From Wenzhouxiangella sp. XN201 (GTDB lineage: Bacteria; Pseudomonadota; Gammaproteobacteria; Xanthomonadales; Wenzhouxiangellaceae): a stretch of 64,000 nt of DNA. Under the pieces are notes generated by a model. The model was not told the origin of the DNA. It ran no database searches and saw only the letters and a list, made by a program, of their open reading frames with translations. Positions within the stretch are counted from its first letter, which is position 1, and every line of letters starts with the position of its first letter. The stretch is from the NCBI RefSeq assembly GCF_011008905.1, contig NZ_JAAIVI010000017.1, positions 248,001 to 312,000 on the forward strand. Reading direction: 5' to 3'. A program made the translations under genes and the position numbers. Of the stretch, positions 25,525 to 46,779 are shown one piece after another.

Positions 25525-25614
25525 GGGGGAGCACAGGGAACAGTCGGGAACGGCCCGTGAGACGTTCAGCCGACGCTTCTCCGGTTGCCCGCCGCAACCC
25601 CGGTCGAATTGGGC

Positions 25615-25792
25615 AACAGGCCGGTCTCCTGACTTCCGGCGGCAGGCCGCAAGGCTTGCCGGGCTGGACCTTCCCCCGGATTGCTCCGGAGTGGTTTCAT
25701 CCAGCCGCATCGACGTGCTGTCGATGCCGGTTACAGTTGCGGGGGCAGTACCGGACTTGCACCGGTTTCCCGAATCACCTGTTACCGATTGT
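25615..25792 (-). promoter_or_regulatory. Cobalamin (B12) riboswitch controlling btuB
   Basis: On the minus strand the hallmark blocks appear in order: a GGTGATTCGGGAAACC start, GTGCAAGTCCGGTACTG, the CCCGCAACTGTAA core, a variable stem, and the B12-box form GTCAGGAGACCGGCC. B12 binding usually shuts off the gene downstream, here btuB about 130 nt later. Confidence 0.95.
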
Positions 25793-25834
25793 TCAAACAA
25801 AAGCGCCGGAGGGCGGTGCCGACCGGCGCGAAGC

Positions 25835-36950: not shown

Positions 36951-38789
36951 ATGAACAGCGGCCTGACACTCAGCGGCGACATGGTTCTGGTGCTGATGCT
37001 GCTGGGTCTGACGGTGTTTCTGTTCGTCACCGAGCTGGTCCGCCTCGACGTGGCCGCCATCTGCATGATGGTGCTGGTGGGCCTTTTGGGTTTGATTCCC
37101 GCTGATCAGCTTTTTTCCGGCTTCGCTTCGAATGCCGTCATCGCCATTATTGCCGTGATGATCCTCGGCGCCGGCCTGGATCGGACCGGGGTGATGAACA
37201 CGGTTTCGTCGCTGATCGTCAAGATCGGCGGTCCGGCCGAGCCACGTATCCGCACCCTGATTGCCGGAACCGTCGGGCTGACGTCGAGTTTCATGCAGAA
37301 CGTGGGCGCCACTGCACTGTTCCTGCCGGTGGTCAGCCGTATCTCCGCGCGTCTGGATCTGCCGCTGTCGCGGCTGTTGATGCCCATGGGTTTTGCCGCG
37401 ATTGTCGGCGGAACCGTCACCATGGTCGGTTCCTCGCCACTGATCCTGCTCAACGACCTGATCCAGACATCAAACCGCTCTCTGCCGCCGGGCGCCGAAG
37501 CAATCCAGCCGTTCCAGCTTTTCGATGTCACCCTGGTCGGGTTGGCCCTGCTGGCCGCCACGTTGCTGTTCTTCATGGTGGCCAGCGCTGCTCTTCTGCC
37601 GCGAACCGAGGAAAAGCGGGCGGCTTCGCCGGGCCGCACCAAGAATTACTTCAAGGATGTCTACGGCATCGAGGGCGACATCTACGAGATGCTGGTGACG
37701 GTCGACTCGCCGCTGGTCGGCATGCGTATCGCCGAGGCCGAGAGCCTGGCGGGCGCGCCGCTGATGCTGGCCATACAGAACACTGACAGTCCGCGACTCG
37801 CCCCGCCGGCCGATGAAATGATCTGGGTCGGTACCGTGCTGGGGGTGATGGGAACGCGCGACGAGGTCGGCGAGTTCGCCCTGGCCAATAACCTGCGGCT
37901 CCAGCCCCGTCTGCGCACCTTCGGAAGGCTGTTCAACCCCTCCCGTGCGGGTATCTCGGAGGTCGTCATCCCGCCGGGATCGAAGCTGATTGGCCAGAGT
38001 ATCGGCGAGGCCCGGCTGCGATCGCGTTTCGGTATATCGGTGCTGGCAATCAACCGACGCAATGAGATCATCACCGAAGATTTGCGGGAAGAAGTGCTGG
38101 TGGTGGGGGACTGTCTGGTCAGCCATTCGACCTGGCGCGACCTGGCCAACGTCGCGCGGGACAAGGATTTTATCGTTGCCACCGACATTCCGAAGGAGGA
38201 GCAGCGGCCGCAGAAGGTCTTGCATGCGGTGAGCTTCTTCGGGCTGAGTCTGTTCCTGATCCTGTTTACCGATTTCCAGCTATCGGTGGCGCTGATGGCC
38301 GGCGCCATCGGCATGGTGCTCACCGGCGTCTTGAGCATGGACGAAGCCTACTCGGCAGTGAGCTGGAAAACCGTGTTCCTGATGGCCGGCCTGATACCCC
38401 TCGGGATCGCCATGGAGGTCACGGGCACGGCCGCCTGGCTGGCCGAGCAGGTGCTGGCGCTGCTCGGCGATGTGCCGCAACTGGTCATGCAACTGGTGCT
38501 GGCGCTGATGGCCACCCTTTTCACTCTGGTCATGTCCAACGTGGGCGCGACCGTGCTGCTGGTGCCGATCGCCATCAACATTGCCCTGGCCACCGGCGGC
38601 AACCCGGCGGTTTACGCATTGCTGATCGCGCTGTCCACTTCGAACGCATTTATCCTGCCGACCCATCCGGTCAATGCCCTGATCATGGGTCCGGGCGGCT
38701 ACAAGGTGAAGGACTTCGTGCGTGTCGGCGCGTTCATGAGCGTGTTGTTCATGACGGTCATGCTGTTCATGATCAACCTGGTGTATTGA
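36951..38789 (+). CDS. SLC13/DASS-type permease with internal RCK_C domains
   Basis: This 612-aa inner-membrane carrier has the divalent anion/Na+ symporter fold split by a cytoplasmic insert. The N-terminal half has about five transmembrane segments (LVTEL-like FVTELVRLDVAAICMMVLVG, FMQNVGATALFLPVV, FAAIVGGTVTMVGSSPLILL). The insert (about 215-395) contains two RCK_C (TrkA-C) domains, which can bind ligands or nucleotides. The C-terminal half is again hydrophobic with MSNVGATVLLVPIAINIALA and HPVNALIMGPGGYKVKDF. Substrates in this class include sulfate or citrate; the exact one is not visible. Confidence 0.9.
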   Translation: MNSGLTLSGDMVLVLMLLGLTVFLFVTELVRLDVAAICMMVLVGLLGLIPADQLFSGFASNAVIAIIAVMILGAGLDRTGVMNTVSSLIVKIGGPAEPRIRTLIAGTVGLTSSFMQNVGATALFLPVVSRISARLDLPLSRLLMPMGFAAIVGGTVTMVGSSPLILLNDLIQTSNRSLPPGAEAIQPFQLFDVTLVGLALLAATLLFFMVASAALLPRTEEKRAASPGRTKNYFKDVYGIEGDIYEMLVTVDSPLVGMRIAEAESLAGAPLMLAIQNTDSPRLAPPADEMIWVGTVLGVMGTRDEVGEFALANNLRLQPRLRTFGRLFNPSRAGISEVVIPPGSKLIGQSIGEARLRSRFGISVLAINRRNEIITEDLREEVLVVGDCLVSHSTWRDLANVARDKDFIVATDIPKEEQRPQKVLHAVSFFGLSLFLILFTDFQLSVALMAGAIGMVLTGVLSMDEAYSAVSWKTVFLMAGLIPLGIAMEVTGTAAWLAEQVLALLGDVPQLVMQLVLALMATLFTLVMSNVGATVLLVPIAINIALATGGNPAVYALLIALSTSNAFILPTHPVNALIMGPGGYKVKDFVRVGAFMSVLFMTVMLFMINLVY

Positions 38790-39418: not shown

Positions 39419-39465
39419 GTGAAGTGTTCAGTGTGAAGAAACGCACCGCCCCTTCACACTTCCAG
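39419..39465. repeat. Short inverted repeat of the GTGAAGT tandem type
   Basis: Left arm (39419-39438) GTGAAGTGTTCAGTGTGAAG, right arm (39454-39465) CTTCACACTTCC. A 9-bp stem forms with a 14-nt loop. The right arm supplies the stop codon and last codons of the antiporter subunit gene on the minus strand. The unit is the same as in the metK-ahcY gap. Confidence 0.65.
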
Positions 39466-41136
39466 TATCCCGAACATCAGCATCACCGCCAGCAAAATCG
39501 CCACCCACAGGGCCATGGTGCCGACTGGCGAGGTCCGGCCGAGCCCGCGCTCTACATTGCTTGTAACCACGCTTGATCCGACCCGCCAGCCAGTGCTCGA
39601 CAGCCAGTTCCCGGCCGCCGTAAGCGTGGCGTGAATCCGTTGGGCCAGAGTCGGCACGGCGCGCCGCGCAAACCAGTCCGCGTCCAGGTTGGTCGAAGGA
39701 ATTTCGGCCGGGTAGCGCCCTGAGCGGTGCATCCACACGATCGCCAGGGTCGCGAACAACAGCAGTTGCATCTGGATCAGGACGTGGGTGACGTCGTAGG
39801 GCCAGTACTCGTAGTCGTAGGGCAGGATCGCGTACAGCGCCTGGGGATAGACGCCGATACCAATACAAAGGAACGCAGCCAGACCCATGGCCAGCAGCAT
39901 GTTCAGTGGGGCCTCCCGGGCTTCGGCGTGGCCATGGCGCGAGAAGAACCCGAAATAGGGGATCTTGATGCCGGCATGTTCGAGCACGCCGGCCGATGCG
40001 AACAGCATGACCAGCCAGATCAGCAGGTGATCGGTCTTGATCAGCGCGCTCATGATCATCGCCTTGGACACGAAGCCGCTCAACAGCGGAAAGGCCGAAA
40101 TCGATGCGGCACCAATGATGCAGAAGGTCGCCGTCCAGGGCATCTGGCGATAGAGTCCGCCCAGCTTGCTGGCGCTGACCGTGCCCGCCTGCTGCAACAA
40201 CGCACCCATCGACATGAACAGTAGCGCCTTGTAAATGATATGGGCGAAGGCGTGTGCGGCGGTGCCGTTGAGTGAAAGCTCCGTGCCAATGCCGATGCCC
40301 ACGGTCATGAACCCGAGCTGGTTGATGATCGAGTAGGAAAGGACGCGCCGCAGGTTGTTCTCGATGATGGCGTAGAAAATGGGAAAGAATGCCATCACCG
40401 CCCCGATGTAGATCAACAGTTCGGTGCCGGGAAAACCGCGCGCCAGGGCGTAAATGGCGGCCTTGGTGGTGAAGATGCACAAAAAGACCGATCCGGTCGG
40501 CGTACCGGCGGGATAGCTGTCGGGAATCCAGTTGTGCAGGAGCGGGAAGCCGGCCTTCAGGCCGAAGGCGAGAAAGATCAGCCAGGTCGCCGGGCCGTCG
40601 AGCGTCATGGCTTCGAATGCCAGGCTGCCGGTATCGAGCCAGATCAGCAGTGCGCCGGCCATCAGCAGCACGCCGGAAAGGACCTGGTAGACCAGGTAGC
40701 GCAGCCCGGCAGCCACGGCCTCGGGCGTTCGGCCGGCGAAGATCAGGCCGGCCGAGGTCAATCCCAGCAGTTCCCACTGAATGAACAGCGTCAGCAGGTC
40801 GCCGGCGAACAGCACGCCCATGCCCGCGGCTATGTAGAGCAGGCCGCTGACCTGCTGCAGTGTGTCGCGCACTTTCAGCGCGAACAGGATCGACATCAGC
40901 GCACCGATATGGAAGGCGATGCCGAAAATGTAGCTCAGCGAGTCGGCGCGATAGGGAATCAGTTCCAGGCCCAGCAGACTCATGCTGCGGGTCACGTCCA
41001 GTTCCATGTCGAAAAACTGCAGCCCCCCAATAATGGGTGCGGCGAGCAGCACGACGGCCCGCAGCCAGCCGCGTGTGACCGGCACGAGCGCAGCGGCGAT
41101 CAGGAAGGGCCAGACCGGGTGGAACTCAGGAATCAT
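39454..41136 (-). CDS. Third antiporter-type (NuoL/M/N-like) subunit of the Mrp-like operon
   Basis: This 560-aa, multi-spanning membrane protein belongs to the proton-pumping antiporter-like subunit family (MrpD/NuoM-like). Key residues are present: the TM5 Glu in LFIQWELLGLTSAGL, the TM7 Lys in AFGLKAGFPLLHNW, a further Lys in FTTKAAIY, and the TM12 Lys in LSGFVSKAMI. The last transmembrane helix is extended by a linker of about 100 residues and one more helix. Canonical Mrp operons have no third such subunit, so its role is an open question. It overlaps the preceding 85-aa gene by 11 nt. Confidence 0.9.
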   Translation of the reverse strand: MIPEFHPVWPFLIAAALVPVTRGWLRAVVLLAAPIIGGLQFFDMELDVTRSMSLLGLELIPYRADSLSYIFGIAFHIGALMSILFALKVRDTLQQVSGLLYIAAGMGVLFAGDLLTLFIQWELLGLTSAGLIFAGRTPEAVAAGLRYLVYQVLSGVLLMAGALLIWLDTGSLAFEAMTLDGPATWLIFLAFGLKAGFPLLHNWIPDSYPAGTPTGSVFLCIFTTKAAIYALARGFPGTELLIYIGAVMAFFPIFYAIIENNLRRVLSYSIINQLGFMTVGIGIGTELSLNGTAAHAFAHIIYKALLFMSMGALLQQAGTVSASKLGGLYRQMPWTATFCIIGAASISAFPLLSGFVSKAMIMSALIKTDHLLIWLVMLFASAGVLEHAGIKIPYFGFFSRHGHAEAREAPLNMLLAMGLAAFLCIGIGVYPQALYAILPYDYEYWPYDVTHVLIQMQLLLFATLAIVWMHRSGRYPAEIPSTNLDADWFARRAVPTLAQRIHATLTAAGNWLSSTGWRVGSSVVTSNVERGLGRTSPVGTMALWVAILLAVMLMFGILEV

Positions 41137-41383
41137 AGTAATCCTCGTCGCGCTTGACCAATGCGCGCAGGCCCTTGGCCACCAGCACCGCGAAGACCAG
41201 CGCGGCGAAGCCGTAGAGGGCGTGGAAGAACGGGATCGATTCCACGTCGTTGTAAGTGTGGCGGTGAATCAGGAGCTCCACGCCCAGCAGCAGTGCGCAC
41301 ACGATGTAGAGGGCGGCACGAATGCGCTGCTTGATGACGGGGTTGTCCGCCCAGCCGGTGTCATTGCGGTTCGGCTCGCTCAT
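41126..41383 (-). CDS. 85-aa two-helix membrane protein in the Mrp-like operon
   Basis: The product has a polar N terminus (MSEPNRNDTGWADNPVIKQR), two likely transmembrane helices (about 23-42 and 52-70), and an acidic C-terminal tail (KRDEDYYDS). I do not recognise it as any known Mrp subunit. It lies between the second and third antiporter-type genes, overlaps the latter's start by 11 nt, and is 4 nt after the former. It may be a linker or assembly factor specific to this type of complex. Confidence 0.75.
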   Translation of the reverse strand: MSEPNRNDTGWADNPVIKQRIRAALYIVCALLLGVELLIHRHTYNDVESIPFFHALYGFAALVFAVLVAKGLRALVKRDEDYYDS

Positions 41384-41387
41384 GCTT

Positions 41388-42839
41388 TCATCCTCCAGGC
41401 ACCATCGAGGCCAGCCGGAACAGCGGCTCCGGGAAAAAGAACAGTGCTATGCAGCCGCCCGAAGTCAGCACCATTGCGGCCACCATCGGCCACGGGGCTT
41501 CCTGGATCCGGCTGGTGTCGAGCGTCTCGTCGGGCCGGCCGAAGAAGGCGCGCATCGGGACCACCAGCAGGTAGACGATATTGAGCAGCGAGCTGGCAAT
41601 CAGGGTGGCGACCAGCGCCCAGTGTCCGCCCTCGAGGGTTCCGGCAACCAGGTACCACTTCGACCACATGCCGGCGAATACCGGCAGGCCGATGATGCTC
41701 AGGCTGGCGATGGTGAACGCGGCGAAGGTGTAGGGCATGACGCGGCCCAGGCCGTCGAGCTGCGAAATCTTCTTGCGCTGGTGGGCGACCTGGATCGCGC
41801 CGGCGCCGAAGAAAAGCGTGATCTTGGCCACCGCGTGCATGGCCAGTTGCAGGATGGCGCCGAGCAGGGCCAGTGGCGTGGCGACCAGCGCGCCGAGCAC
41901 GACGTAGCTGAGCTGGCTGATGGTCGAGTAGGCCAGGCGAGCCTTGAGATCGTCGAGCGTGAGGGCGATCAGCGAAGCGGCCAGGATGGTAAACGCGGCC
42001 ACCCAGGCGATCCACAGGCTCGCCTGGGTTTCGGCCAGCAGGTCGATGCCGAAGATATACACGGCGATCTTGAGCACCGTGAATACGCCCGCCTTGACCA
42101 CGGCTACGGCGTGCAGCAGGGCACTGACCGGGGCCGGCGCAACCATCGCCGCGGGCAGCCAGCGGTGCACCGGCATCAGGGCGGCTTTGCCGATGCCGAA
42201 GAAAAACAGCCCGGCCAGCAGCGGTAACCAGCTTTCGTCGATTTGGCCGGCGAGAATGCCGCCTTGCTCGAAGTCGACCGTGCCGGTGGCGAAATACGTC
42301 CACAAGATGGCGACCAACAGCAGCCCGATCGAGGTCGTCAGCAAGACGCCCAGGTAGATGCGACCGCCGCGGCGTGCATCCTCGCTGCCCGAGTGGGTGA
42401 CCAGTGGGTAGGTCGAAAGGGTCAGGATCTCGTAGAAGATGAACAGCGTGATCAGGTTGTCGGCAAAGGCCACGCCGGCAGCCGCGCCCAGCGCCAGCGC
42501 ATAGCAGGCAAAGAAACGGCCGAGATGCGGGTAGTTCAGCGCCTTCATGTAGCTCTGGGCGTAGAGCGTGGCCACCAGCCACAGCCCGGAGGCCACCAGG
42601 GCGAACAGCAGGCCCAGCGGCTCGACCCGGAAGGCGATCTCCAGTCCCGGCAGGATCGACCACAGCGTCTGCTCCCGCCCGGCGCCGTCGAGCACCGGCC
42701 CGATCTGCTGAAGAACGCCGATGAAGAAGACGATGGCGGCCAGCCAGCCAAGCCCGTCGCGCAGCTTCGGCCAGCGCCCGGCCAGGGCGATGGCGATGGC
42801 GCCAAAGAAGGGGATCAGGATGACGGTTACCGGGCTCAT
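41388..42839 (-). CDS. Second antiporter-type subunit, MrpA-N/NuoL-like
   Basis: A 483-aa multi-spanning protein that most resembles the N-terminal half of MrpA and NuoL. The key pattern is MPVHRWLPAAMVAPAPVSAL with LLHAVAVVKAGVFTVLKI. The TM5 Glu is in FIFYEILTLSTYP and the TM7 Lys in FFGIGKAALMPVH. A late Lys is in VFAGMWSKWYLVAG. I use the ATG at 42839 because it overlaps the previous stop (ATGA); upstream in-frame extension lies inside the previous gene. Canonical MrpA fuses this part to a C-terminal domain that is a separate gene here. Confidence 0.9.
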   Translation of the reverse strand: MSPVTVILIPFFGAIAIALAGRWPKLRDGLGWLAAIVFFIGVLQQIGPVLDGAGREQTLWSILPGLEIAFRVEPLGLLFALVASGLWLVATLYAQSYMKALNYPHLGRFFACYALALGAAAGVAFADNLITLFIFYEILTLSTYPLVTHSGSEDARRGGRIYLGVLLTTSIGLLLVAILWTYFATGTVDFEQGGILAGQIDESWLPLLAGLFFFGIGKAALMPVHRWLPAAMVAPAPVSALLHAVAVVKAGVFTVLKIAVYIFGIDLLAETQASLWIAWVAAFTILAASLIALTLDDLKARLAYSTISQLSYVVLGALVATPLALLGAILQLAMHAVAKITLFFGAGAIQVAHQRKKISQLDGLGRVMPYTFAAFTIASLSIIGLPVFAGMWSKWYLVAGTLEGGHWALVATLIASSLLNIVYLLVVPMRAFFGRPDETLDTSRIQEAPWPMVAAMVLTSGGCIALFFFPEPLFRLASMVPGG

Positions 42840-44320
42840 GGCAGCGCCCCCGTCGACCCGATCAGGGCCTGGGCTGCGGCCGTGGCGCCGGCCACTGGCA
42901 GGCGGGTGTCGAGCCCGAACCAGAAGTTGAGCCCGACCACCAGCCACAGCGGCACCAGCAGCGCAAGGGGTGCCTCCCGCACCGGCTCGGCCTCAGCCGG
43001 TCGTGACTTGAACCAGGCCGCTTCGACCACCCGCCAGACGTAGATGACCGCCATCAGTGAACTGATGACAATCAGCGCCACCAGCCAGGGCTGGCCGGCA
43101 TCCATGGCGGCCATGATCAGGTACCACTTGCTGATGAAGCCGGCCGTGGTCGGAATGCCGATGATTGACAGCCCGGCCAGGGCGAAAGCGGTCATGGTCC
43201 AGGGCATCTGTCGCCCCAGGCCATGGAAGGCCTCGATCCGAACCGAGCCGACCCGCCAGGCGACCGTCCCCACAGCCATGAACAGCGCGGCCTTGATCAG
43301 CGCGTGGTTGAACAGGTGCAGGAAAGAAGCGGTCAGTCCGGCGGCCGTGCCCAGCGCCAGGCCGAGCAGCATGTAGCCGACCTGAGAAATCGACGACCAG
43401 GCCAGCATGCGCTTGAGATTGGCCTGGAAGATGGCGGTCCAGGCGCCAATGAACATCCCGGCCAGGGCAAGCGCCAGGAATACCGCGGCCAGCGGCAGAA
43501 CGCCGTAACTGTAATCAGCGCCGAAGACCGTGTAGATCATGCGGATCATCACGTACAGCGCCACCTTGGTGGCCGTGCCGGCGATGAACACACTGATGAA
43601 ATTGGGGGCGTAAGTGTAGGCGTTGGGCAGCCACAGATGCAGCGGCAGCATGGCCAGCTTGAGGCCCATGCCGACGATGATGAAAGCCAACGCCACCTGC
43701 ACGGTGCGGGTGTCGGCCACCTGTGGCAGGCGCTCAGCGAGGTCGACCATGTTGAGCGTGCCGGTCATGATGTAGAGAAAGCCGACGCCGATCAGGAAGA
43801 AGGTGGCGCCGACGGTGCCCATGATCAGATAGCGGAACGAAGCCAGCAGGGCACGGCGGTCGGGGCCGTGGGCGATCAGCGCGTAGGTCGACAGCGAGGA
43901 AATCTCGAGGAAGACAAACACGTTGAATGCATCGCCGGTGAGCGTGATGCCCATCAGCCCGGCCAGGGCGAGCAGGAACAGGCTGTAGAACACGCCCTGG
44001 CGTTCGCCGAGTTCGTCATCGACGCTTTTGCGCCCCCACAGCGTGGCCAGCACGGCCAGGCCGCTGACCAAGAGGGCGACAAAGGCGTTGGCGCCATCGA
44101 CGCGGTATTCGATGCCGATCGGCGGCGGCCAGTTACCGAAAGCATAGGACAGCGGGCCGGCCATCGCCGCGGGCAGGACGAGTGCGGCGATCAGCGTGCT
44201 GGCCGCGGCCGCGAGCAAGGCCAGCAGCCACGGCAGCATGCGTCCGGGCAGCAGGGCGCATACGGGTGCGGCGATCAGCGGCACCAGCACGCTGAACGGC
44301 ATCCATTCGATCAGCGTCAT
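42836..44320 (-). CDS. mrpD: MrpD-like antiporter subunit
   Basis: This 494-aa protein has the size and pattern of MrpD. The TM5 Glu is in NVFVFLEISSLSTYALI, the TM7 Lys in MGLKLAMLPLHLWLPNAYTY, a Lys in AGTATKVALYVMIRMIYTVF, and the TM12 Lys in GFISKWYLIMAAMD. It begins in ATGA overlap with mrpC and ends in the same kind of overlap with the next gene. It would form one ion or proton channel of the membrane complex. Confidence 0.93.
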   Translation of the reverse strand: MTLIEWMPFSVLVPLIAAPVCALLPGRMLPWLLALLAAAASTLIAALVLPAAMAGPLSYAFGNWPPPIGIEYRVDGANAFVALLVSGLAVLATLWGRKSVDDELGERQGVFYSLFLLALAGLMGITLTGDAFNVFVFLEISSLSTYALIAHGPDRRALLASFRYLIMGTVGATFFLIGVGFLYIMTGTLNMVDLAERLPQVADTRTVQVALAFIIVGMGLKLAMLPLHLWLPNAYTYAPNFISVFIAGTATKVALYVMIRMIYTVFGADYSYGVLPLAAVFLALALAGMFIGAWTAIFQANLKRMLAWSSISQVGYMLLGLALGTAAGLTASFLHLFNHALIKAALFMAVGTVAWRVGSVRIEAFHGLGRQMPWTMTAFALAGLSIIGIPTTAGFISKWYLIMAAMDAGQPWLVALIVISSLMAVIYVWRVVEAAWFKSRPAEAEPVREAPLALLVPLWLVVGLNFWFGLDTRLPVAGATAAAQALIGSTGALP

Positions 44321-44688
44321 CGATTGTCCTCGTCGGCGGCCGCGGGTTCGTCGTCGTGGATCAGGTCATCCTCGATCGTGCCGTAGGCCTCCTTGATGCG
44401 CATGGCCAGGGCCAGGCCGACGGCCGTGGTGGCCACGCCGACGACAATGGCGGTGAGGATGAGTACGTGCGGCAAGGGGTTGGAGTAGACATCCACCCCT
44501 TCGCGCAGGATCGGCGTTGAGCCGCCGATGATCTTGCCGGCGGAGATGAACAGGATGAACACCGAAGTCTGAAAGATGTTCAGCCCCATCATCTTCTTGG
44601 CCATGTTGCCCCGGGCAATGACGCAGTAGAAGCCGATCATCATCAGGACAACGACGATCCAGTAGTTGATGTGACCGAGTGCCGCCAT
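44317..44688 (-). CDS. mrpC: MrpC (NuoK-like) antiporter subunit
   Basis: This 123-aa protein has three transmembrane helices and the MrpC/NuoK motif GLNIFQTSVFILFISAGKII, followed by DVYSNPLPHVLILTAIVVGV and a third helix with acidic C-terminal tail. The start overlaps the mrpB stop by 1 nt. In Mrp complexes it sits beside MrpD and MrpB. Confidence 0.93.
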   Translation of the reverse strand: MAALGHINYWIVVVLMMIGFYCVIARGNMAKKMMGLNIFQTSVFILFISAGKIIGGSTPILREGVDVYSNPLPHVLILTAIVVGVATTAVGLALAMRIKEAYGTIEDDLIHDDEPAAADEDNR

Positions 44689-45134
44689 CAGTCCGCCTCG
44701 TCCTCGGCCAGGGCCAGCAACTCACGGCGGCGGGCGAACTGCGTGAACACCAGCATCATCACGGTCGCCACCGTCAGGCCCACGCCCAGTTCGACCGTAA
44801 TGATTCCGAACTGCTGGGCCGCATGCTTGCCCGGCAGCAGCGGATAGAAATCGAGGAAATGCCCACCCAGCAGCACGCCGGCAATGCCAACCGCGGCGTA
44901 GATCAGCACGCCCAGCAGCATGAGCACGAACATGGCCCGCTCGGGAATGACCTTGAGCGCGTCCTCCAGGCCGTAGATCAGCACGAACAGGATCCAGGCG
45001 GCTGCAAACACCACGCCGGCCTGGAAACCGCCGCCGGGCGAATAGTCGCCGTGGAACTGGATGTAGAGCCCGAACAGCATGATCAATGGAATCAGGAAGC
45101 GGGCGACGACGCGAAGGATGCCGTGTTCTCTCAT
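44688..45134 (-). CDS. mrpB: MrpB (MnhB) antiporter subunit
   Basis: This 148-aa protein with four transmembrane helices has the MrpB hallmark LYIQFHGDYSPGGGFQAGVV and FGIITVELGVGLTVATVMML. I chose the ATG at 45134, which overlaps the stop of the preceding gene (ATGA), rather than the longer open frame. The length agrees with MrpB proteins (about 140). Confidence 0.93.
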   Translation of the reverse strand: MREHGILRVVARFLIPLIMLFGLYIQFHGDYSPGGGFQAGVVFAAAWILFVLIYGLEDALKVIPERAMFVLMLLGVLIYAAVGIAGVLLGGHFLDFYPLLPGKHAAQQFGIITVELGVGLTVATVMMLVFTQFARRRELLALAEDEAD

Positions 45135-45718
45135 CGCGCGTCCTTCCCCTCGGGCGGCAATTTGCGGCGCCGCTGCGGGCGAACCGACAACAGGGCCCAC
45201 ACCGCCAGGCCGGCGGTGAGGATTACAAAGGCCTCGCCGATGGTATCGATCGAACGGTAGCTGGCGAGCACGGCAGCGACCATGTTGGGTACGCCCATAT
45301 CCGGGTAGGCCTGCTCGATGTAGTAGGGCGCAACGTGGGTGTGGACGGGATTGTCAGGCGCGCCGAATTCGGGCAAATCGAGTGTGGCCCAGATCAGGGC
45401 TGCCCCGGTAACCACGACCACGATCAGCGCTGGCCAATTGTTTCCCGGCACGATCGTCTCGTCGCGGCGCGCCACCGTCAGCACCGCCAGCACCAATAGC
45501 GTGCTGATACCCGCTCCCACGGCCGCTTCGGTCAAGGCCACGTCGCCGGCGTCGAGCACGGCAAACAGGCCGGCACTCAACAAGGAATAGATGGCGAACA
45601 GCATGACCGAGGCGAACAGGTCGCGCATGCGCACGACCGCCACGGCCACGACGACCAGCAGGAACAGCAGGGCGATGTCGATCAGGACTTCGATGGCGGC
45701 GCTCCTTCGTCGGTCCAC
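45131..45718 (-). CDS. DUF4040/MbhD-type subunit (equivalent of the MrpA C-terminal region)
   Basis: This protein covers what canonical MrpA has near its C terminus. RDLFASVMLFAIYSLLSAGL and DVALTEAAVGAGISTLL are the DUF4040 signature, and ASYRSIDTIGEAFVILTAGL matches the MrpA-B region. The start is unclear. A GTG at 45718 (used here, 195 aa) has no ribosome site. Eight codons later an AUC at 45694 has AAGGAG at good spacing and gives the typical N terminus IEVLIDIALL. Both overlap the mrpG 3' end. It is thus a free-standing piece of a split MrpA. Confidence 0.85.
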   Translation of the reverse strand: MDRRRSAAIEVLIDIALLFLLVVVAVAVVRMRDLFASVMLFAIYSLLSAGLFAVLDAGDVALTEAAVGAGISTLLVLAVLTVARRDETIVPGNNWPALIVVVVTGAALIWATLDLPEFGAPDNPVHTHVAPYYIEQAYPDMGVPNMVAAVLASYRSIDTIGEAFVILTAGLAVWALLSVRPQRRRKLPPEGKDAR

Positions 45719-46011
45719 GGTTTCACGTTGTCGACCATGGCGGCCCGTGCCAGCGCATGCGAGGCCGTCGGCGCAGTGAACAGCATGAACAGGAGGATCA
45801 GGGCCAGCTTGATCGAAAGGATGCTCAGGCCGGCCTGCAGGATCAGTCCGCCGATGATCAATAGCGTGCACAGGGTGTCGGTCATGCCGCCAGCGTGCAG
45901 GCGCGTGTACAGATCGGGAAAGCGCAGCAGACCCAAGCCGCCGATAACGGCTACCAGACCGCCGGTCAGCAGCATCAGCCAGGAAATCCAGTCGAGCACC
46001 ACTTCAACCAT
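45682..46011 (-). CDS. mrpG: MrpG antiporter subunit
   Basis: This 109-aa protein has three transmembrane helices and the MrpG/MnhG signature GLLRFPDLYTRLHAGGMTDT, followed by FMLFTAPTASHALARAA. It overlaps mrpF by 8 nt upstream and the next subunit gene downstream. The length is right for the family. Confidence 0.94.
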   Translation of the reverse strand: MVEVVLDWISWLMLLTGGLVAVIGGLGLLRFPDLYTRLHAGGMTDTLCTLLIIGGLILQAGLSILSIKLALILLFMLFTAPTASHALARAAMVDNVKPWTDEGAPPSKS

Positions 46012-46297
46012 CGGTGATGTCTCCTTCCCTGGATGCAGCCAGGTCGCGCATCTTGACCAGCTTGAGAACGGCGACCACGGTGATGAAGTTGATCAGCGCG
46101 TAGACCAGCGCCACATCGACGAGATCGTCGTGACCGGTGATGAACACGATCAGGGCGACGACCAGCACGGTTTTGGTTCCGAATACGTTGACCGCCAGGA
46201 TGCGGTCATAGTTGGTCGGCCCCTTGAAGGCGCGCACGAGCGCCAGCGCCATGGTCAGGAAGACTGCCAGCACGGTGATCATCAGCACAATAGTCAC
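46004..46297 (-). CDS. mrpF: MrpF antiporter subunit
   Basis: This 97-aa protein has three transmembrane helices and the MrpF pattern LVRAFKGPTNYDRILAVNVF, then TVLVVALIVF and DVALVYALINFITVVAVLKL. The start overlaps the mrpE stop (ATGA), and the stop overlaps mrpG by 8 nt. Confidence 0.94.
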   Translation of the reverse strand: MTIVLMITVLAVFLTMALALVRAFKGPTNYDRILAVNVFGTKTVLVVALIVFITGHDDLVDVALVYALINFITVVAVLKLVKMRDLAASREGDITDG

Positions 46298-46779
46298 CGG
46301 CTGGCTTCCCGGCCCTGTTCGAGCCAGCGAAGGCGCTTGGCCATACTGCCGTCTTCGATACCGGCGGCCGAATGGTCGTCGATGGCATGGACCTCGATGA
46401 AGTCATCTTCGAGCTGAAGCGTCACAGTGCCGGGCGTCAGCGTGATCGAGTTGGCGTAGGTCACCTTGGCGACCGGTGTCTCTAGCGGCACCGGCGCGCG
46501 GATCACCCGTGGATGAATGCGCTGTGGTTGCAGGACCAGCCGGGCAACGTGCACATTCGCGCTGACGATCTGCCCGATCAGCCAGGCCCAGTAGACCGGT
46601 AGCCGCCAGGAATAGAGCGCCGGGTTGTGCTCGGTGCCGACCACTTCCATCCGCGCCGACAGCCACACCACGAGCAGCACCGAGGCCGCGCCGAGGGCCA
46701 GGATGGCCGGCTTGTAGACGCCCGAGATCCCGAGCCACAGGGCGGCAAGTATGAAGGCGAGTGACAGGAAGTAGCGCAT
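46294..46779 (-). CDS. mrpE: MrpE antiporter subunit, first gene of the operon
   Basis: This 161-aa protein has an N-terminal membrane region (about 1-42 and 65-85) and a cytoplasmic MrpE domain: VYWAWLIGQIVSANVHVARL, RAPVPLETPVAKVTYANSIT, LTPGTVTLQLEDDFIEVHAI. I chose the ATG at 46779, which gives the typical MRYFLSLAFILAALWLG start; the open frame runs further but is not conserved. The operon order is E-F-G-(DUF4040)-B-C-D plus two more antiporter subunits. Confidence 0.92.
   Translation of the reverse strand: MRYFLSLAFILAALWLGISGVYKPAILALGAASVLLVVWLSARMEVVGTEHNPALYSWRLPVYWAWLIGQIVSANVHVARLVLQPQRIHPRVIRAPVPLETPVAKVTYANSITLTPGTVTLQLEDDFIEVHAIDDHSAAGIEDGSMAKRLRWLEQGREASR

Follow-up and report, generated by a model that had tools for sequence, protein, structure and literature searches.

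A ten-gene group 3 Mrp-type operon with three antiporter-type subunits in Wenzhouxiangella sp. XN201

The operon and its class

We analysed a stretch of 64,000 nucleotides (the window) from the genome of Wenzhouxiangella sp. XN201 (3.13 Mb in 22 contigs), in which ten genes related to Mrp antiporters and to the MBH, MBS and complex I membrane arms occupy the minus strand between 46779 and 39454, in the order E-F-G-(MbhD+MbhE)-B-C-D1-D2-S85-D3. The fourth gene is called DE below, and S85 encodes a protein of 85 amino acids (aa). The place, the gene order and the presence of three antiporter-type genes together with an 85-aa gene had been read from the sequence alone (the original prediction) and were confirmed. 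The features are as follows:

46294..46779, minus strand: E, mrpE/mbhA-type gene, 161 aa (Pfam MNHE, 98.2 bits)
46004..46297, minus strand: F, mrpF/mbhB-type gene with a GTG start, 97 aa (Pfam MrpF_PhaF, 54.7 bits)
45682..46011, minus strand: G, mrpG/mbhC-type gene, 109 aa (Pfam PhaG_MnhG_YufB, 83.7 bits)
45702..45708, minus strand: Shine-Dalgarno-like GAAGGAG, seven bases before the proposed AUC start of DE
45694-45692, minus strand: proposed AUC start of DE (the alternative is a GTG eight codons upstream)
45131..45694, minus strand: DE, MbhD+MbhE (DUF4040) (Pfam MbhD and MbhE; NF009159, 190.7 bits, cut-off 141)
44688..45134, minus strand: B, mrpB/mbhF-type gene, 148 aa (Pfam MnhB, 98.9 bits; NF009162, 165.6 bits, cut-off 120)
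44317..44688, minus strand: C, mrpC/mbhG-type gene, 123 aa (Pfam Oxidored_q2, 74.4 bits; NF005624, 128.8 bits, cut-off 95)
42836..44320, minus strand: D1, antiporter-type gene of the MbsH/NuoN branch according to trees, 494 aa (Proton_antipo_M, 215.4 bits; best solved chain 6u8y_H)
41388..42839, minus strand: D2, antiporter-type gene nearest to MrpA-N/NuoL according to trees and a histidine in transmembrane helix (TM) 8, 483 aa (Proton_antipo_M, 184.2 bits)
41126..41383, minus strand: S85, gene for an 85-aa protein, conserved in related loci (no family match)
39454..41136, minus strand: D3, third antiporter-type gene, related to MbsH', 560 aa (NF009310, 659.4 bits, cut-off 564)

Proton_antipo_M was found in three proteins of the operon (D1, D2 and D3), in line with the three pump-type subunits predicted, and S85 was the only product without a clear Pfam match. 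DE corresponds to the C-terminus of the MrpA of canonical Mrp; the gene indeed stands alone, as had been claimed, but it consists of MbhD fused to MbhE rather than of DUF4040 only. Because adjacent genes overlap by 1-13 bases or lie 4 bases apart (the overlap of 13 assumes the proposed start of DE), we read them as one transcription unit.

In kind the operon is a group 3 Mrp (CPA3), a group defined by the lack of mrpA and the presence of one or more copies of mrpD (PMC8415708; here and below, published work is cited from the excerpts available of each paper), and it is a variant in composition, with three pumps, S85 and a clamp on D3. The B, C, E, F, G and D subunits were all identified by Pfam or NCBIfam, full-length mrpA is lacking, mrpD is represented by at least one copy, the DUF4040 part stands alone and the antiporter-type genes number three. 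No match to TIGR00940 (MrpA) was found in the genome at E<=1e-150, the threshold for listing. D2 and DE are separate genes, so that MrpA is split as predicted and the fusion of MrpA-N to the DUF4040 part typical of Mrp groups 1 and 2 is not found. These canonical groups share the homologous subunits B-G, and antiporter function would be expected in both cases, but they have a fused MrpA, one MrpD and two pumps.

A redox module accompanying the membrane arm, as in MBH, MBS and complex I, was not found either. Relatives of NuoA-NuoI were absent at E<=1e-3 both from the window, as predicted, and from 80 related loci, the nuo locus of the same genome serving as positive control; NiFe hydrogenase families were covered in this search solely via their similarity to NuoB and NuoD. 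The related loci were obtained by a scan with a D3 alignment, taking one genome per species and keeping the best 80 of at least 588 relatives, and therefore contain D3 by construction. No recurrent neighbour family was seen around them (the commonest flank family occurred in 11 of the 80; more than 1.5 kb was available before E in 54 and after D3 in 69). These results bear on linked modules only, and a redox- or otherwise energy-driven pump with its input module encoded elsewhere could still be imagined, since redox modules are part of the related MBH and MBS (PMC7684303) and a lone pump arm can be recruited. We nevertheless consider such a pump very improbable.

The closest described system is the stand-alone Mrp of Pyrococcus furiosus (mrpEFGBB'CD, a seven-gene core E-F-G-B-B'-C-D; PMC8415708), whose genes match the first seven of our operon in kind and order, with MbhD and MbhE fused and with neither MrpA nor a redox arm, but which lacks D2, S85 and D3. 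The group 3 Mrp of 'Candidatus Nitrospira alkalitolerans' carries two extra NuoM-/NuoL-like genes after mrpD (PMC7784846); these may be either D2 and D3 with S85 or true NuoL and NuoM. The latter arrangement was observed in a second Mrp operon of another genome (G025, L122), where E-F-G-DE-B-C is followed by pumps grouping with NuoN (weakly), NuoL and NuoM; no S85 or D3 match was seen in this other three-pump Mrp. As to whether the system is an already described standard subtype, group 3 and the seven-gene core are in print (PMC8415708), whereas the open-access literature searched yielded no description of precisely these ten genes. D3 itself is already covered by a curated NCBI family (NF009310).

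Three antiporter-type subunits and the clamp helix

The glutamate and lysine residues of the proton path, predicted to be present in all three pumps, are almost invariant. Leaving out sequences shorter than 400 aa (7 of 70 for D1 and 7 of 79 for D2) and including the window, the TM5 glutamate and the lysines in TM7, TM8 and TM12 were found in 64/64 D1 and in 73/73 D2 proteins, and in D3 the lysines were conserved in 81/81 and the glutamate in 80/81. The best NCBIfam matches were NF009305 for D1, NF006236 for D2 and NF009310 for D3, of which only the last passed its cut-off.

In a tree of 85 proteins D1, D2 and D3 each formed a single clade among the carriers placed (support 97, 99 and 98, respectively), D1 grouped with NuoN and MbsH (89) and D3 with MbsH' (92; 88-94 across trees). 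D2 stood apart in the first tree, which contained long branches, and joined MrpA and NuoL at 76 once four long branches had been removed; in that tree the D3-MbsH' group (88) joined NuoM at 80. Upon addition of rhizobial proteins D2 remained with MrpA and NuoL (81) and NuoM was no longer found with D3. A histidine in TM8, described as a mark of MrpA/NuoL (PMC4938563), was present in 73/73 D2 proteins, in line with the prediction that one of the later genes is MrpA-N/NuoL-like, although the D2 of the window clearly shows just two of the four MrpA/NuoL marks in TM8, the histidine and the last valine, and has neither the threonine nor the methionine. The D3 of the window lacks the TM8 histidine and has a horizontal helix (HL) tail, which D2 does not have. 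Given these groupings, one N-like pump (D1), one L/A-like pump (D2) and one MbsH'-like pump (D3) is the best reading of the sequences, though not a secure one.

The separate clades of D1, D2 and D3 and the wide spread of the set (see below) led us to reject the suggestion of an evolutionary intermediate between Mrp, Mbh and complex I. The MBS of P. furiosus (6u8y) has MbsH as the relative of D1 and MbsH', with its TM15-HL-TM16 arrangement, as the relative of D3, but it has two pumps and a redox arm, and D2 and S85 do not appear in the available part of its subunit table. Respiratory complex I, like our operon, has three pump subunits with a clamp helix, but carries HL on NuoL, has a redox arm and lacks the sodium module.

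An AlphaFold2 model of D3 (built from 46 sequences; pLDDT 86.7, pTM 0.85) placed TM15 at residues 449-471, HL at 487-527 and TM16 at 537-559. Compared with solved chains by VIA-align, NuoL (Z 44.1), MrpD (43.9) and MbsH' (42.9) were near ties, and Foldseek ranked MrpA first. The gap between TM15 and TM16, measured with a hydropathy script, had a median of 74 aa in D3 (range 64-89 in 73 of the 80 loci; a fallback measure yielded 73-77 for the remaining seven). In the D3 of the window, where the script picked an earlier helix, a separate look gave 72 aa. For comparison, it was 45-48 aa in four of six MrpA proteins of two-pump complexes (in the other two, at 73 and 75, the script by eye took the next helix), 80 and 93 aa in the two NuoL proteins of three-pump complexes and 92 aa in the D3 of the four-pump complex I of Rhizobium lentis. 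These gap lengths favour an arm of three pumps but are no proof of it.

Conservation of the gene set and predicted function

The data do not support a view of the operon as unusual. The complete ten-gene set was found in the same order in 59 of the best 80 loci, in six phyla, and forms a common and stable gene set. Going by record titles, carriers include alpha-, beta- and gammaproteobacteria, Thermodesulfobacteriota, Campylobacterota, Planctomycetota, Gemmatimonadota and Acidobacteriota, and many are metagenome bins. The spread fits the enrichment in one order of Gemmatimonadota of an Mrp without MrpA, listed as MrpBCDEFG (PMC9426454). In 18 loci only the 3' part was seen; 17 of these start right at the edge of the locus and the eighteenth is L067 (see below). 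In the remaining three (L062, L097 and L105) S85 scored below the BLAST threshold, and reading the gap revealed an S85-like frame.

A fairer estimate of linkage than that from loci found with D3 starts from DUF4040. Of 274 genomes of the window's class, 51 had D3 (NF009310; E<=1e-100) and 55 had the DUF4040 family (E<=1e-30). D3 was present in 50 of the 52 genomes above the DUF4040 cut-off (two of the 50 matches, in G215 and G251, score below the D3 cut-off), and in the two genomes without it (G043 and G153) a contig end cuts within D2. By hand count, DE and D3 lie on one contig within about 6 kb in 41 of the 50. Three genomes have truly split operons, with E-F-G-DE-B and C-D1-D2-S85-D3 at separate places (G096, loci L109/L110; G119, L107/L108; G217, L111/L112). 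Of the other unlinked cases, G181 and G184 are cut within D2, and in G087, G214, G215 and G270 the genes lie on different contigs. The third pump subunit is thus mostly linked in relatives. Between the operon and canonical MrpA no overlap was seen among 5 and 13 (14 with a weak one) of 56 class genomes, though these numbers are too small to speak of mutual exclusion. In one genome (G116, L119) we observed two D3-family genes without DE, nearest to the D3 of rhizobial complex I, which flank a two-component regulator pair and lie beside a peptide-synthetase gene.

To judge from its conservation, S85 is a real gene and a constant member of the set. It was found in 79 of the 79 related loci that show the D2-D3 interval, has two hydrophobic stretches (by eye) and carries a conserved C-terminal R-x-E-D-Y-Y motif; nothing convincingly related was found in Pfam, NCBIfam or solved structures. 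In the D2-D3 interval of G251 (L125) S85 was not seen, and a frame that on reading resembles a LysE-type transporter lies there instead.

D2, S85 and D3 also occur together in complex I operons. Plasmid matches to D3 comprised 101 records, 99 rhizobial and 2 haloarchaeal, and we examined two rhizobial operons, of R. lentis and Sinorhizobium meliloti SM11. The order in R. lentis is nuoJ-nuoK-D2-small gene-D3-nuoM-nuoN followed by nuoA-G, and tblastn on the unannotated record of S. meliloti gave the same order (cassette at 12279-15761 of L194 and 12294-15758 of L195). Searched among a small set of frames, the small gene matches an S85 profile with E 2.7e-16 and 3.7e-14, and the large subunits of R. 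lentis fall in the D2 (97) and D3 (100) clades and exceed the curated cut-offs of NF006236 and NF009310. An open frame spanning D2 and S85 was seen in S. meliloti, but a fusion was rejected because D2 lies in another frame. Judged by gene order and homology, D2-S85-D3 substitutes for NuoL in both operons. On our reading of PMC9040806 these are of the 'green' complex I type, in which 'two MrpD-like subunits' take the place of NuoL; the available part of that account does not mention the small protein. The rhizobial systems thus share the cassette with our operon, but carry it on a full complex I, and E, F, G and B are absent from the stretch seen; in the window and related loci the homologous cassette is linked to E-F-G-DE-B-C-D1 instead of nuo genes.

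We predict, with fair confidence, that the operon encodes a complete stand-alone group 3 Mrp-type Na+(K+)/H+ antiporter that is driven by the proton motive force and whose arm holds three pumps. Its products would assemble into one complex, in which the sodium path would consist of E, F, G, B and the MbhE part, while C, D1 and the MbhD part would make up its junction to the first proton path and D2 and D3 would add two further proton-path subunits to the arm. D3 would be positioned at the far end, where HL and TM16 may clamp the row of pumps as they do in MbsH', MrpA and NuoL in their complexes, and S85 would be a constant accessory subunit of the D2-D3 pair. Proton influx down the proton motive force would drive Na+ (or K+) out, and a third pump unit could raise the H+/Na+ ratio, so that export might continue when the proton motive force is weaker or the sodium gradient steeper. 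That K+ or another cation is the main ion of the same antiporter seems rather unlikely: K+ or Ca2+ transport has been described for Mrp systems, but the Aphanothece Mrp of group 3 is reported to be of the Na+/H+ kind (both PMC5703873).

Several observations weigh against a single three-pump complex. P. furiosus runs the seven-gene Mrp without D2 and D3 (PMC8415708), and in L067 (8157-11611) a lone D2-S85-D3 stands without the other seven genes, with no other Mrp genes or Nuo relatives in the preceding 8 kb, so the D2/D3 pair can exist apart. The deep branches of the trees are weak and shift with the sequences used, and D2 and D3 as one clade were not rejected (p-AU 0.486). Most structural alignments of D3 stop near residue 531, and residues 527-536 have a pLDDT below 50. 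The HL series is not strictly stepwise, NuoL giving 80 and 93 at equal pump number; HyfB gave 106 and the NuoL-like protein of G025 67, and for the D3 of the window and of G025a the script returned 110 and 103, having picked an earlier helix.

The first two of these points, together with the R. lentis and S. meliloti cassettes lying between nuoK and nuoM and the presence of a complex I in the window genome itself, might also suggest two products, in which E-F-G-DE-B-C-D1 forms a Pyrococcus-like Mrp and D2-S85-D3 joins another complex (e.g. complex I, as in rhizobia) or acts alone. The complex I locus of the window genome, however, already has its own NuoL according to the tree (its three antiporter-type genes and those of the operon make up the six of the genome), and the three split operons break between B and C and keep C-D1-D2-S85-D3 together, rather than breaking between D1 and D2. 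Two separate products are therefore improbable in our view, and we keep to the single antiporter.

The question whether an added pump subunit alters the proton/ion ratio concerns the complex I family as a whole. In a three-pump antiporter without redox chemistry this ratio could be measured directly against that of a two-pump Mrp, and the shared cassette would tie the antiporter to an unusual complex I and point to an overlooked small subunit.

A proposed AUC start of DE

In the window there is no ATG, GTG or TTG where DE should begin. GAAGGAG stands there seven bases ahead of ATC GAA GTC CTG, and no Shine-Dalgarno was seen before the alternative GTG. DE thus appears to start at AUC behind a Shine-Dalgarno, and such AUC/AUA starts seem to recur in many related operons. 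In 34 of 63 related loci, 14 of 30 sequences of a class sample and 5 of 20 of a phylum sample the aligned start was AUC, AUA or AUU and no usual start lay within three codons; in 28, 10 and 4 of these, respectively, none occurred as far as the in-frame stop (the class sample holds the best-scoring 30 of 54 matches, the window is outside the counts and species may recur across sets). In total AUC was seen 38 times, AUA 13 times and AUU twice; the other rows have ATG, GTG or TTG at or just before the column or could not be placed.

A Shine-Dalgarno core lies 3-13 bases before the start in 36 of 41 non-AUG rows, versus 8% of random sites and 11 of 18 DE rows with ATG in the column. ATG occupied the start column in 18/94 DE sequences, compared with 81/89 for E, 71/90 for F, 84/93 for B, 90/92 for C and 77/81 for D2. 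The variable N-termini of G (44/95), D1 (42/63), S85 (51/80) and D3 (51/88) make these four poor controls. On a DE tree of 118 rows, in which some genomes occur twice, the start state changes 21 times, at least seven of them forced. Against local isoleucine codons AUA was over-represented (11 seen, 4.4 expected) and AUU under-represented (2 seen, 13.8 expected), which lends weak support to AUA starts, since A-UAG also forms the stop of G in several rows. A frameshift from G into DE was ruled out for eight AUC/AUA/AUU rows (two near-identical), in which G ends at or above the in-frame stop before DE; the exclusion reaches those eight rows only.

Conserved AUU/AUA starts are known in infC, ccpN and cvfC1, and with ccpN, cvfC1 and citZ reporters expression in poor medium was about 10% of that from AUG, reaching up to 30% for ccpN in rich medium (PMC13009471). 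We found no report of a non-AUG start in mrp in the open-access literature searched. If true, such a start would make the supply of DE a limiting assembly step, sensitive to initiation factor 3 (IF3). Its retention as AUC/AUA across many lineages would also be unusual, as structural genes of membrane complexes are rarely cases of weak initiation.

The constancy of S85, the shared cassette and the apparent non-AUG start of DE go beyond what we found in print. As a tentative proposal, possible but short of probable, D2-S85-D3 may be a portable pump cassette with S85 as its undescribed third subunit, set on a Na+ antiporter core as well as on complex I and raising the number of coupled protons in each, with DE read from a conserved AUC/AUA start.

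Upstream of E, a phospholipase-D-type (cardiolipin-synthase-like) gene ends 73 bases before the operon. Close to its 3' side lies a CitMHS-type transporter gene with a TrkA_C domain (36951-38789, plus strand), and a cobalamin riboswitch (94 bits) was found at 25602-25804 of the window (minus strand).

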